Below are positions 19,949-24,416 of a stretch of DNA of 25,942 nt, in pieces (positions within the stretch are counted from its first letter, which is position 1; each line of letters starts with the position of its first letter). Origin of the DNA: a virus; IMG/VR virus record IMGVR_UViG_3300044511_000092, positions 1 through 25,942 of that record, one strand, 5' to 3'. The position numbers and the translations under genes were made by a program. The notes under the pieces are model-generated. The model was not told the origin of the DNA and did no database searches. It saw only the letters and a list, made by a program, of their open reading frames with translations.

Positions 19949-19961
19949 CGTACAAACTTAT

Positions 19962-20094
19962 TGGTCTTTCGACAGCGCCCAGATGACTCACAAGGTATCC
20001 GCGACTTTTCAGCACTGCTACGATGGTTCACACACGATCTTTGGTCTTTCGACAGCACCGCTTTGGTTCACACACGATCTTTGGTCTTTCGACA
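19962..20094 (-). repeat. TIGR-like array 1 (four 13-base and three 9-base boxes)
   Basis: Read on the plus strand, a 13-base box (TGGTCTTTCGACA type; 19962, 20002, 20042, 20082) alternates with a 9-base box (TGGTTCACA type; 19984, 20024, 20064). Every variable spacer is exactly 9 bases and the unit is exactly 40 bases. Spacers in order are gcgcccaga, aggtatccg, ctgctacga, cacgatctt, gcaccgctt, cacgatctt; the last repeats the fourth. The probable RNA is the minus strand, where each 13-base box folds into a GAAA-tetraloop hairpin. One box (20002) has a T:A pair in place of C:G next to the loop. The array starts directly after the Nudix stop and ends at a terminator. Confidence 0.88.
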
Positions 20095-20592
20095 TCAACT
20101 CGGCGGCTTCGAGAAAGTGGGGATTGTTACAGATATTGTGTGAAGAGGCTTGTATTCCGGGCAGGCGGAATCGGTGATGGTCCATCCATCGACTTCGCAC
20201 CGCATGAGCGGAATGATGACCCGCAGATTGGGAATAAGCCGCTTGTCGGCCAACGCCTCATGGAACGGCATCCACATAACCTCTTCGGTCTCGCCCTCGC
20301 GGGGCTTAAGTTCGACGTGTGTTTCGGCGATGGCATTGAGACAGTGGATCGTGAACTGACGGTCCTTCATCACACCCATCTGTTGCATCCGCCACGCTTG
20401 CAGACCGGTCTCTTCGTGAAGCTCGCGCTTGGCGGCTTCCTCGGGCGTCTCCCCTTCTTCCATGCGGCCACCGGGCAGATTCAGCTTGCCCTTCTGCCAC
20501 TCCGGTCGGTCCTTGAGGATGAGCAGGATTTGAATCTGATCCTTGAAGTCGCTGTACCTCATGCACAGGACTAACACGTATTCCTTCGACAT
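20095..20592 (-). CDS. Nudix hydrolase
   Basis: The 165-residue protein contains the complete Nudix box at about residues 38-61 (GGRMEEGETPEEAAKREL then HEETGL), fitting Gx5Ex7REUxEExGU. These enzymes hydrolyse nucleoside diphosphates linked to another group, such as oxidised dNTPs, NAD derivatives or RNA caps; the substrate is unknown. I chose the ATG at 20592 (MSKEYVLVL...) with AAGGAG upstream; the frame stays open through array 2, but that part is repeat, not protein. The gene sits between TIGR arrays 2 and 1 in the tasR operon, and its TGA abuts the first box of array 1. Confidence 0.9.
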   Translation of the reverse strand: MSKEYVLVLCMRYSDFKDQIQILLILKDRPEWQKGKLNLPGGRMEEGETPEEAAKRELHEETGLQAWRMQQMGVMKDRQFTIHCLNAIAETHVELKPREGETEEVMWMPFHEALADKRLIPNLRVIIPLMRCEVDGWTITDSACPEYKPLHTISVTIPTFSKPPS

Positions 20593-20605: not shown

Positions 20606-20937
20606 TGGTTCACAAAATGAGTTTGGCCTCTCGGCAAACCTCCGTTGGTTCGCAAGGCGGTTCTGGCCTTTCGGCAAGGTACACATGGCCCGTATTCCCT
20701 TTTGGTCCTTCGACAAAGTTCTAATGACTCACACTGAAACAGTGGCCTCTCGGCAACACCGCGATGGTTCACATATCAACTCTGGCCTTTCGGCAGTGGC
20801 TCTTTGGCTCACAGCACCAGCATGGCCTTTCGGCACAGGTACATTGGCTCGTACCACGCAGCTAACAATGACTCACAAGCTGCCCTTTGGCCTTTCGGCA
20901 CAGCTATGATGGTTCACATTCGCTGAATTGGCCTTTA
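20606..20937 (-). repeat. TIGR-like array 2 (seven full 13-base and nine 9-base boxes)
   Basis: The 13-base boxes start at 20624, 20664, 20703, 20743, 20783, 20823 and 20888, with a partial one at 20929. The 9-base boxes start at 20606, 20646, 20686, 20725, 20765, 20805, 20845, 20869 and 20910. Spacers are 9 bases except one of 8 and two of 10. The order is aaatgagtt, aacctccgt, aggcggttc, aggtacaca, ttcccttt, aagttctaa, ctgaaacag, acaccgcga, tatcaactc, gtggctctt, gcaccagca, caggtacat, an irregular 15 bases, agctgccctt, cagctatga, ttcgctgaat. The irregular unit lacks a 13-base box. Most boxes here are the C:G form (minus strand TGCCGAAAGGCCA). The array directly follows tasR, whose stop lies in the partial box. 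Confidence 0.88.
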
Positions 20938-21930
20938 TGTCAGCCCCGGATACGCAGTAGGAGGAAGAATCTCCTTTGAGTGTCCGCCATGTTCAAGCAC
21001 CCACGGCTTCGGCACTGGTAGACCTTCCAATTCGCGCCATGCCTTCCACAGATGGTGGAGAAAGATCTTACCGGCCTTACGGCGAGCACGCCGTTCCGCG
21101 TGAAGGAGCGACTGTACGCGCCGATCTTCTCTGGCCTTGCCAGAGTCCTCCTCGAAGATCTTGGCACATCGCGCCTTCTCATCAGCATAGATGCCGTTGT
21201 AGATTGGCGACTTCTGGCGGACGAACTGATCTGGAACGCCGTGACACACAAGACATCGCAGAGCGCTATTCCAGTTAGCCACAACACCCTTCTGTTTCTT
21301 GAGTGCCTTGTTGTCCTTGATGTGGACCCCGGCGTAAGCGTACAAGTTCGACACATTGTCGAACCGCTTGATCTCACCAATCTCAGAGATGAGACCAGCG
21401 GCGAGTGCCGGGCCGATGCCCTTGATCTTCGATAGGAAAGTGTCGTAGATGGGAATTCGCTTCAGTTCCTTCGTCAGCTTCTTGGCAAGCAGGTCTTTGG
21501 CCTTCTCAAGCGAGGCAAGGTATTCCTTATTGTCGTCGTCTTCTGCGGCCCATTGGCGGTTCTTGACGGCGGTGATCTGCTTGGTGAGTTGTTCGTAGTT
21601 GACATAAAACTGCTTGAGCTTCGAGTCCTCTTTCATCTGGCGAAACTTCGCCGGGGAATCCTTATACAAATCCCAGATGACGATGGCATCATTGTCATCG
21701 GTCTTGGGAATGTTGTACTTCTCGCGGTAAGCTGCTGAAGAGTTCGGGCTGCATCGCATTACGATGGCCCCATCCTTGATCAATGGCTTCGCCAGCTTGT
21801 TCGGCATGTTCTCTGTGAGGATGACATCACCAGCCTCAACCTTTGGCATCTTGTGCGTCATCTTCTTTCCGTTCCAAACGGAAAGCTTTTCTTCTTCGTA
21901 GCCCCAATCAATGGAATAAAGCTTGGACAT
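20935..21930 (-). CDS. tasR: TasR: TIGR-associated RuvC-like, IS110-related RNA-guided nuclease
   Basis: The protein has 331 residues from the ATG at 21930, which has AAAGGAGG seven bases upstream; a longer frame from 21969 has no such site. The N-terminal domain shows the IS110-type RuvC/DEDD acids: Asp8 (YSIDWG), Glu40 (ILTEN), Asp78 and Asp81 (KTDDNDA). A helical middle (about 95-165) leads to KGIGPALAAGLISEIGEIKR then FDNVSNLYAYAGV (170-202), the IS110 C-terminal/Nop-like signature, and a basic helical tail. The Ser of the IS110 QSG motif is absent (HIKDNKALKKQKG). With TIGR-like arrays on both sides, it fits TasR, which uses tandem-spacer guide RNA to cut DNA, better than a transposase. 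Confidence 0.82.
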   Translation of the reverse strand: MSKLYSIDWGYEEEKLSVWNGKKMTHKMPKVEAGDVILTENMPNKLAKPLIKDGAIVMRCSPNSSAAYREKYNIPKTDDNDAIVIWDLYKDSPAKFRQMKEDSKLKQFYVNYEQLTKQITAVKNRQWAAEDDDNKEYLASLEKAKDLLAKKLTKELKRIPIYDTFLSKIKGIGPALAAGLISEIGEIKRFDNVSNLYAYAGVHIKDNKALKKQKGVVANWNSALRCLVCHGVPDQFVRQKSPIYNGIYADEKARCAKIFEEDSGKAREDRRVQSLLHAERRARRKAGKIFLHHLWKAWRELEGLPVPKPWVLEHGGHSKEILPPTAYPGLT

Positions 21931-21959
21931 CCCTGTCCTCCTTTGGTTAAGACCATGAG

Positions 21960-21988
21960 ATGATACCAACGTAATTCTTACAGGTCAA
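21960..21988 (-). promoter_or_regulatory. Sigma70-like promoter of tasR
   Basis: On the minus strand TTGACC (21983-21988) and TATCAT (21960-21965) are separated by exactly 17 bases. It lies between the array 3 terminator and the tasR start, so tasR can be expressed apart from array 3. Confidence 0.75.
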
Positions 21989-22037: not shown

Positions 22038-22049
22038 GCAATATCGTGC

Positions 22050-22361
22050 TGGCTTTTCAGCAGGGCGGATGCGGCCCACACATCTCATGTGGTCTTTCGA
22101 CAGATTGAATGGGCTCACAAATAACAAGTGGCCTTACGGCAAGTGTCCATTGGCTCACACTTCGGTTCGGGCCTTTCGGCGAACGTGGACTGATTCGCAA
22201 GAGATTCATAGTCTTTCGACATGCCTTCCTTGACTCGCTAGTTCCCCATGATCTTTCGACATAGGATTCAGCGGCTCACACAAGCAGATTGATCTTTCGA
22301 CAAAGTTGCTGTGGTTCGCATGGCCGATATGGTCTTTTGACAACCTTATCGTGGCTCGCAT
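22050..22361 (-). repeat. TIGR-like array 3 (eight 13-base and eight 9-base boxes)
   Basis: The 13-base boxes start at 22050, 22090, 22129, 22169, 22210, 22250, 22291 and 22331; the 9-base boxes at 22072, 22111, 22151, 22191, 22232, 22273, 22313 and 22353. The unit is 39-41 bases. Spacers are gggcggatg, catctcatg, gattgaat, aataacaag, agtgtccat, cttcggttc, aacgtggac, aagagattca, tgccttcct, agttcccca, taggattcag, caagcagat, aagttgctg, tggccgata, accttatcg. The boxes are more varied than in arrays 1 and 2, including a GUAA loop (22129) and an AAAA loop (22331). Perfect palindromes bracket the array. No promoter was found at its right end, so it may be read from the sigma-like gene. Confidence 0.88.
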
Positions 22362-22420: not shown

Positions 22421-22993
22421 TCATTCCGTGGCGGCTCCAAGATAGTCATACTCGCTTAAAGAAACAAGTCCAGTTCGCCACGATTTCTCTCGGGTGATTT
22501 GTTTCCCGAGCGACTTCTGTGCATTCCAGATAATTTGCTTCGTATAAGTGGAAAACTTAGGGTCAATCGAAAGCGGCTTGTCCTTTGCCGGTCTACAATC
22601 CTTCGGGACGTGTTTCCGTATGAGCCTGTCGAGGATTAGCTCTTGGAACTCGCCAAACTTCTGTCGATTGGCCCCATGTCTTCTTCGATCTTTCCATAGC
22701 TGTTTCAGTTCTTTCACCAGACTCTTAATGAACTTGTCTTCGACATGATCATCAAGGATCTGGAAGCACTCTTCAATGTACGTCTGACGCTTGTAGTAGC
22801 TACCGGCCCTGAGAAGGGCGATGCGCAACTCCTGCACGTCATCGTCGGGATCATTCGTGAGGCTATTCTTAGAGTTCTTTTTCTTAAGTTGCCATGCGGC
22901 ATAGTGACACAGATTTCCGAATTTCTCGTCGAGCACTTGGTATTCATCTGGGGTCACTGGATATGTGTTGACAATCGTTTCGAGCGTTTGCAA
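22421..22993 (-). CDS. Sigma-factor-like protein
   Basis: The 190-residue protein starts at TTG 22993 with AGGAGG four bases upstream, the same arrangement as the phosphatase gene. The first half resembles sigma region 2: DEKFGNLCHYAAWQL, then NDPDDDVQELRIALLRAG (compare the D-D-x-x-Q-E pattern of region 2.1/2.2) and an aromatic helix. KFSTYTKQIIWNAQKSL (about 146-162) recalls the FxTY...I.N pattern of phage late sigma factors of the gp55 type. No clear region 4 is seen. It could redirect host RNA polymerase to other phage promoters. The match is by pattern only. Confidence 0.5.
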   Translation of the reverse strand: MQTLETIVNTYPVTPDEYQVLDEKFGNLCHYAAWQLKKKNSKNSLTNDPDDDVQELRIALLRAGSYYKRQTYIEECFQILDDHVEDKFIKSLVKELKQLWKDRRRHGANRQKFGEFQELILDRLIRKHVPKDCRPAKDKPLSIDPKFSTYTKQIIWNAQKSLGKQITREKSWRTGLVSLSEYDYLGAATE

Positions 22994-23031
22994 CGGTCCT
23001 CCTATACAATTCTTTCGTAGGCGTGGATGAA

Positions 23032-23086
23032 CTAAGACGGCACATCTTCAATGGTCTTTCGACAGAAAGTCTACGACCGCCTTAGT
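23032..23086 (-). repeat. Lone TIGR-like unit inside a hairpin
   Basis: A single 13-base box (23052-23064, TGGTCTTTCGACA on the plus strand) lies in the loop between ten-base arms ACTAAGACGG and CCGCCTTAGT, which pair with one mismatch. No clear 9-base box flanks it. It lies between the sigma-like gene and the DNA polymerase stop. It could be a one-unit guide RNA or a remnant of a lost array. Confidence 0.7.
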
Positions 23087-24416
23087 CCTTCCACAGAACT
23101 TTCATTTTGTCGAGCTTGGCTCCGAACTTCACTTCGACTTTCATTCTTAAGCCGGGGCAGAGTCTCGATTCACCCTCCAAGATCTCTTTGACCTTGAGGT
23201 ACGTCTCACGCGCCGCCTCGATCTTGCACACCAGACCGAAGCCGTCATGGACGGTGAAGGCGATGTACGCCCTCTCGCTGTTGAGTGCGAATTGCAACTC
23301 AATCAGTTTCTCTTGGCATACCGTCGCCGCGACTCCTTGAACCACGAAGTCTCTGGCGAGGTAGCTCTTGTTCTCTTCAAACGTCCGTGGCCTGCCCAAC
23401 CGGTCCAATACCGGTCCCTTCTTGGCAGCCTCTTGTACATCCATCATCCACCGCCAAGCGACCGGGAAGGCCATCTTGATGCGGTTGATCAGTTCTTTGG
23501 CGACTGTCTCGGGCACGCCGATCAACTCCCCGAGGCGCGAGGCCCCACAGCCGTACATGACGGGCAGGAAGATCAGCTTGGACATGTTCCGCTTGGTATC
23601 CGTGTCGCATTTATCGTTGGTCAGAATCTCGTAGATACGACGGTGCAGGTCGTCTCCTGAGTCTAGGATTTCTTTGAGTTGTGGATCGCCCGAGAGCCAC
23701 TGTAGGACAGTGACCTCGCAGTGCCGAAAGTCAGCGTAGAGAAACCGATTCCCATAGCCCTTTGGTTTCAGAGCCCTCTTTACGTCTGGCCCCATGTTGT
23801 GGGGGAGGTAACTCTTGGCGAATTTCTTAAGGCAGTTCATTCGCCCGTTGATCTGTCCCTCGATCTCGTAGTAGGGATACTCGGAACGCTTGGCGTCCTC
23901 GTTCAAGAGGGCCGTCGTTTCGATCACAGGCAATACTTTAAGCGAAAGTGGTAGATGAACCGCTTTGTAGACTAGCTGCCAAGTTTTGTGTTCGACAGCG
24001 TGCTTTGTCCTATTTACGGCTTCCACCAAATTTTCTGGCGACTTTTTTCCGCGAATGCCAAGAAAGTTTTCGACCACCTTCAAGTCGATGAAGACCTGCT
24101 GGGGCGAAGGTAGGACAAACTTGTGCGGGCATTGGGCGTGGAAGTAGGTGGCGAAGGACTTGAAGTTGTAGACGTACAAGCGGTCCACACACTCCTTGTT
24201 GAACAAGGTCGCGTCGAACTGAGCCACGAGGGGCATCACGTCTTTAGATTCGACCTCAAACTCCACTCGCTGTTCATTCCCACAAATGATGATCTTGAAG
24301 GGCGCATTCTCAGTGTGATCGGGCACTTCTGGTTCCGTCTTAAGAAACACAGCCCGATTGGTTTCCAGTAGCTCAGAAATCTGTACCGCCGCGTCATACA
24401 GGTTCATGTCAGCCAT
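23082..24416 (-). CDS. Family A DNA polymerase, short form
   Basis: The 444-residue protein has the family A polymerase motifs: INGRMNC (189-195, like Pol I TxGRLS), motif A YADFRHCEVTVLQWL with Asp229, motif B KRNMSKLIFLPVMYG with Arg276, Lys280 and Tyr288, and motif C FTVHDGFGL with His390-Asp391. Motif C has Gly where most members have Glu. The roughly 190 residues before the palm are too short for the 3'-5' exonuclease and thumb of Pol I, and no exonuclease motifs are visible. It is the likely replicative polymerase, with proofreading possibly supplied by the DnaQ-like protein at 5755-6324. The start has a weak ribosome-binding site. Confidence 0.92.
   Translation of the reverse strand: MADMNLYDAAVQISELLETNRAVFLKTEPEVPDHTENAPFKIIICGNEQRVEFEVESKDVMPLVAQFDATLFNKECVDRLYVYNFKSFATYFHAQCPHKFVLPSPQQVFIDLKVVENFLGIRGKKSPENLVEAVNRTKHAVEHKTWQLVYKAVHLPLSLKVLPVIETTALLNEDAKRSEYPYYEIEGQINGRMNCLKKFAKSYLPHNMGPDVKRALKPKGYGNRFLYADFRHCEVTVLQWLSGDPQLKEILDSGDDLHRRIYEILTNDKCDTDTKRNMSKLIFLPVMYGCGASRLGELIGVPETVAKELINRIKMAFPVAWRWMMDVQEAAKKGPVLDRLGRPRTFEENKSYLARDFVVQGVAATVCQEKLIELQFALNSERAYIAFTVHDGFGLVCKIEAARETYLKVKEILEGESRLCPGLRMKVEVKFGAKLDKMKVLWKD

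Follow-up and report, generated by a model that had tools for sequence, protein, structure and literature searches.

A probable solo, stem-closed guide unit for TasR at the end of a phage DNA polymerase gene

Why should a single guide-like repeat unit stand by itself, enclosed in a hairpin at the end of a DNA polymerase gene, in a phage that also carries whole arrays of such units? The unit lies at 23029-23088 of a 25,942-bp phage contig from IMG/VR (IMGVR_UViG_3300044511_000092; hereafter the window, meaning the whole stretch analysed), which encodes a TasR-like protein and three arrays of the tandem interspaced guide RNA (TIGR) type. In published TasR arrays, edge and loop repeats alike open with box D (UG) and close with box C (CCA) (PMC12045711), and stem-loop TIGR arrays, described for Tas proteins that fall outside the dual-repeat clade, consist of units with two 8-12-nucleotide (nt) spacers between boxes C and D, in which a palindrome replaces the edge repeats and which are processed to single units (Faure et al. 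2025, PMC12045711). An earlier note on this DNA had pointed to a lone canonical 13-base box with flanks of the usual length outside the arrays, and this was borne out: the box (plus-strand form TGGTCTTTCGACA, 23052-23064), with its 9-nt flanks, is the sole such copy in the window outside the arrays. We propose that the unit is probably a solo, stem-closed guide RNA (tigRNA) made from the polymerase transcript and loaded into TasR.

The unit had been read on the plus strand, which proved wrong: the minus strand carries the genes, and it alone fits the published polarity, with a loop repeat UGYCGAAAGRCCA and an edge repeat UGYGARCCA; the plus-strand reading, in which the boxes misfit that polarity and one stem position is mismatched, was rejected. 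On the minus strand the unit reads GGACUAAGGCGG-UCG-UAGACUUUC-UGUCGAAAGACCA-UUGAAGAUG-UG-CCGUCUUAGUUC. Its 5' arm (GGACUAAGGCGG, 23077-23088) forms 12 uninterrupted base pairs, two G.U pairs included, with its 3' arm (CCGUCUUAGUUC, 23029-23040), abutting box C and box D exactly and enclosing 36 nt; the stem had been described as 10 bp with one mismatch, and the stem holds up while the mismatch turns out to be a G.U pair. The polymerase stop codon UAA lies inside the 5' arm (23084-23082), as had been claimed. Between the arms follow UCG at the position of box C (23074-23076), spacer A (UAGACUUUC, 9 nt, 23065-23073), the loop repeat (UGUCGAAAGACCA, 23052-23064), spacer B (UUGAAGAUG, 9 nt, 23043-23051) and box D, UG (23041-23042). 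The loop repeat, made of box D (UG), a 2-bp stem with a GAAA tetraloop and box C (CCA), is an exact fit to the array consensus, and the arrangement UCG-9-UG...CCA-9-UG provides the two spacers of a stem-loop guide unit, each between a box C and a box D. The UCG retains the C plus a base able to pair with the U of UG; the array-1 loop at 20002-20014 ends in UCG too, and the arrays also contain the variants CCG and UCA. Folding of the minus strand gave z = -3.0, an Rfam search returned no match, and near DNA matches were not found in phage records. The last five bases of spacer B before box D (AGATG) are shared with an array-3 unit (22081-22089), by chance or common descent.

Could such a stem arise by chance? 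Pairing in stem units was counted by register, as a MAFFT alignment of the three units considered here was unreliable. In the register of the solo unit, at least 10 flush pairs were found at 6 of 25,822 window positions and in 0 of 20 array units, which reached at most 4 flush pairs; the chance of at least 10 is about 2-3e-4 per unit or position. A descriptor combining box and stem gave 0.05 matches per 94-kb strand in Markov-resampled sequence versus exactly one, the solo unit, in the window. A pattern search for these repeats found one other phage contig, IMGVR_UViG_3300015263_000599 (G001), with identical gene order, a TasR 63% identical to that of the window and a polymerase protein only 57% identical (two further pattern matches, L129 and L130, were judged to be chance). 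At the junction between the polymerase gene and the following 190-aa gene, G001 carries the unit GGGAUGGCUGGAG-CCA-GAUAGUUUC-UGUCGAAAGACCA-AAACAUUAGU-UG-CCCAGCCAUCCC, in which the stem is wholly different in sequence from that of the window and still complementary, starting right after the polymerase stop codon. Seventeen nt (UUUCUGUCGAAAGACCA, the loop repeat plus the four bases before it) are identical between the two junction units, and spacer B is one base longer in G001 (10). A second stem unit in G001, GCUUCGUAGU-CCA-ACGCCGAGG-UGCCGAAAGGCCA-CACACCGAC-UG-AUUGCGAAGC, covers the UAG stop codon of the 190-aa gene. Where array units have edge repeats, the two G001 units have stems of 10 and up to 14 pairs; stems of 10-14 pairs thus occur in three units of two phages and in none of 31 array or other units, and each of the three starts either at a stop codon or over one. 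When the window and the complete G001 and G002 (the last a relative without TasR) were scanned with the descriptor, these three units alone were returned, none of them in G002. The units do not form tandem arrays, being solitary in the window and well separated in G001.

The same comparison bears on whether the unit is what is left, in decayed form, of an array since lost, its stem being due to chance or an unrelated hairpin; a remnant was also among the suggestions of the earlier note. That the unit is single and its box C altered to UCG would fit a remnant, and a stemless, clearly degenerate lone loop repeat (UACCGAAAGGUCA), itself probably an array remnant, is present at the tasR 3' end of G001 (L020 2641-2653), where the window has array 2. 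However, all three stem units have an exact loop repeat, as against 8 of 20 non-stem units in the window and 4 of 11 in G001, and both phages have a flush stem of different sequence at a per-unit chance as low as that given above. An orthologue at the same position, whose stem differs in sequence yet remains complementary, therefore makes the unit look like a real solo guide and not a leftover, and we regard the remnant explanation as quite unlikely. Position, pairing, boxes and loop are thus kept in the relative, in which conservation of stem and spacers had been proposed for checking, whereas the spacers differ. Among the possibilities first raised, a single, specially processed guide is the best supported, by its 9 + 9 nt spacers, canonical loop repeat, box D, a box C variant that the arrays also use, flush stem and positional orthologue.

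A further question was whether the unit accompanies TasR or simply the gene junction. No TasR was found on the contigs of 22 relatives sharing the 190-aa gene, and no unit directly upstream of that gene in these TasR-less relatives wherever the upstream stretch was readable; the polymerase/190-aa gap is short in them, about 9 nt in G002. Since the unit is found in the TasR phages and in none of the readable TasR-less relatives, its presence appears to go with TasR, as judged from the sequences of two TasR-bearing phages. These observations also speak to an ordinary intergenic hairpin or terminator that resembles the loop repeat by coincidence of its 13-mer. Hairpins are common at gene ends, but neither junction stem is followed by a T run, for which the terminator reading was rejected, and the loop is 36 nt long; moreover, an exact 13-mer, a box D and 9-nt spacing coincide here, and the TasR-less relatives lack the element, making this explanation very improbable.

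The presumed partner, encoded by tasR (20935-21969, minus strand), is a full-length homologue of the solved TaTasR (9mty; E = 8.4e-88, matched along the length of the protein), and this match places it among the Nop- and RuvC-containing proteins of TIGR-TasR; TaTasR is its best match among solved chains, with 42% identity over the aligned part. Residues D21, E53, D91 and D94 are invariant between the two, and D21 aligns with catalytic D11. Edge and loop repeats alternate with 9-nt spacers and UG...CCA boxes in the three minus-strand dual-repeat arrays: array 1 (19952-20115, 4 units, followed by a hairpin with a T-rich tail), array 2 (20606-20941, its first unit, 20929-20941, degenerate and overlapping the tasR stop codon) and array 3 (22039-22360, 8 units). 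A rho-independent terminator (22037-22006, minus strand) follows array 3; published TasR arrays likewise have an A-rich loop and terminate in a rho-independent terminator (PMC12045711). Loop-repeat positions 3 and 10 covary (U-A, C-G), as expected for a short GAAA-capped stem. Two neighbouring array-1 units (20033-20081) carry an identical spacer B, AAGATCGTG, and array 3 of G001 likewise holds a repeated spacer, TATCAGGCG; given these repeats, arrays may grow through partial unit duplication.

Which known guide format does the solo unit resemble? It shares with TaTIGR dual-repeat arrays the kind of loop repeat, the 9-nt spacers, the UG/CCA boxes and a strand common with the genes, but it is without edge repeats and its ends are closed by a 10-12 bp stem. 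With the TIGR stem-loop arrays (TasA locus, Peromyscus gut; PMC12045711) it shares two short C/D-flanked spacers, a variable palindromic stem and one hairpin per guide, and some published stem-loop units retain a conserved middle resembling the loop repeat (PMC12045711). In contrast to those arrays, which are tandem and belong to other Tas clades, the window unit is solitary, sits at a stop codon and has a loop repeat common to the dual-repeat arrays of the same-cluster TasR; judged by those arrays and by its best match to TaTasR, its partner appears not to lie outside the dual-repeat clade. A helix-closed guide offering C/D-type boxes to a Nop domain also recalls box C/D small nucleolar RNA and the IS110 bridge RNA, although the latter has two guide loops and serves recombination.

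How might such a unit work? In TIGR-TasR systems the arrays are processed to 36-nt RNAs that Tas binds. The RNA in TasR offers a symmetric dimer two box C/D motifs of equal kind, and the open end of an array-derived tigRNA has one or two pairs from two cut edge repeats, which the authors doubt form in naked RNA (PMC12045711). We infer that the solo unit would be transcribed together with the polymerase mRNA from the minus strand, loaded into TasR and directed to DNA. At the guide's open end the 10-12 bp stem would juxtapose boxes C and D, giving a C/D motif equivalent to that from the GAAA-capped loop repeat at the other end; a TasR dimer would bind both motifs, with spacers A and B acting as a split guide for an 18-bp DNA target. 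The stem would stand in for the two flanking edge repeats, and a lone unit would need no exact excision from an array. Because a true helix, starting where the edge-repeat pairs would be, shuts its open end, the unit should fold before TasR binds, without need of neighbours. The predicted target strand is 5'-TAGACTTTC-CATCTTCAA-3' (spacer A, then the reverse complement of spacer B, with a 0-2 bp gap allowed), an orientation that we derived from the way TasR is published to cut (5' of whichever base pairs with spacer base 5, leaving 8-nt 3' overhangs; PMC12045711). More speculatively, stop-codon embedding might define a second guide format, in which the 5' arm lies in the footprint of the terminating ribosome and couples solo tigRNA assembly to translation of a replication gene, the edge-repeat arrays being expressed and processed separately, an idea we think unlikely to hold.

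Several points weigh against the guide reading. The first box C carries two changes from CCA, and spacers A and B partly pair with each other in both polymerase-junction units, which could hinder guiding. The spacers differ between the window and G001 (6 of 9 positions identical in A, 2 of 9 in B) and so do not point to a common target, and the searches turned up no more than two TasR phages of this kind. Neither the window nor G001 nor G002 contains the predicted target site at up to 3 mismatches, and self-targeting is therefore unsupported. That stem, boxes and loop are kept while the spacers differ would equally suit a cis-acting site, at which TasR binds a pre-formed C/D hairpin at the 3' end of the polymerase mRNA and controls its translation, decay or read-through, or is itself titrated. 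A sensor bound by TasR in this mRNA had been suggested earlier, and the unit does lie on the coding strand and hence within that mRNA, in the polymerase/190-aa gap, overlapping the polymerase stop codon and a short way before the 190-aa gene's ribosome-binding site; the start of all three stems at or over a stop codon points the same way. Nevertheless, spacer lengths held at 9 nt (one spacer 10) follow a guide format, the second G001 unit has no gene closely downstream, just array 3 behind a terminator-like hairpin, and published stem-loop units are processed guides (PMC12045711). We retain the cis-acting site as the main rival, though an unlikely one, and prefer the solo guide.

The genes around the unit run, all on the minus strand, in the order polymerase, 190-aa gene, array 3, TasR-like gene, array 2, NUDIX gene, array 1 and DnaB-like helicase. 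The polymerase gene (23082-24416) belongs to family A (PF00476, E = 1.1e-25), and the 190-aa gene (22421-22993), of unassigned function, lies directly downstream of the unit with a TTG start and AGGAGGA just upstream, and neighbours the polymerase in relatives too. Beyond this locus, a TasR-based scan of viral contigs returned, besides G001, five solo-Nop Tas loci, of which most have dual-repeat arrays. In Microcystis phage Mvi-JY20 (PP438412, L011 5489-5805) a dual-repeat TIGR array of 36-nt period comes after a TasA-like gene that is annotated as 'hypothetical protein', and the solo-Nop Tas genes of IMG/VR contigs L148-L151 are followed, on their own strand, by 36-nt dual-repeat arrays (at least 27 units in L151). 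No convincing stem-clamped unit was found in the five solo-Nop loci, a 9-pair match in L011 being intragenic and obtained with a looser descriptor. The full-alignment TasR scan of genome contigs gave no matches, and a scan with the C-terminal part gave matches resembling IS110 transposases over a short conserved stretch. Among mycobacteriophage genes annotated 'transposase' or 'hypothetical', 76 records match TaTasR. Two of these phages, Euphoria (NC_023726 gp70; L143 3669-3970, 3998-4705) and prophiFSAT01-1 (gp27; L145 3777-3955, 3989-4723), have solo-Nop TasA-like genes with several stem-loops just upstream, whose 9-13 bp stems surround 30-39 nt and in most cases have CA directly after the 5' arm. 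The 36-nt enclosure of the window unit falls in this range; unlike it, the mycobacteriophage hairpins are several in tandem beside a solo-Nop TasA, with no dual-repeat array seen there. Their sequences make these loci candidates for a stem-loop TIGR system whose host can be worked with in the laboratory.

What, then, does the unit mean for TIGR biology? The solo stem form beside dual-repeat arrays, with one RuvC-bearing Tas and one loop repeat, is new here, and later or subscription literature may describe such units. Maturation of tigRNA and the targets of TIGR are stated open questions (PMC12045711). The unit joins the dual-repeat and stem-loop types, which had been reported in separate clades, and offers a minimal natural single-guide design; a solo guide in which a stem takes over from two edge repeats would mean that both guide formats described so far can probably be used by a single TasR.
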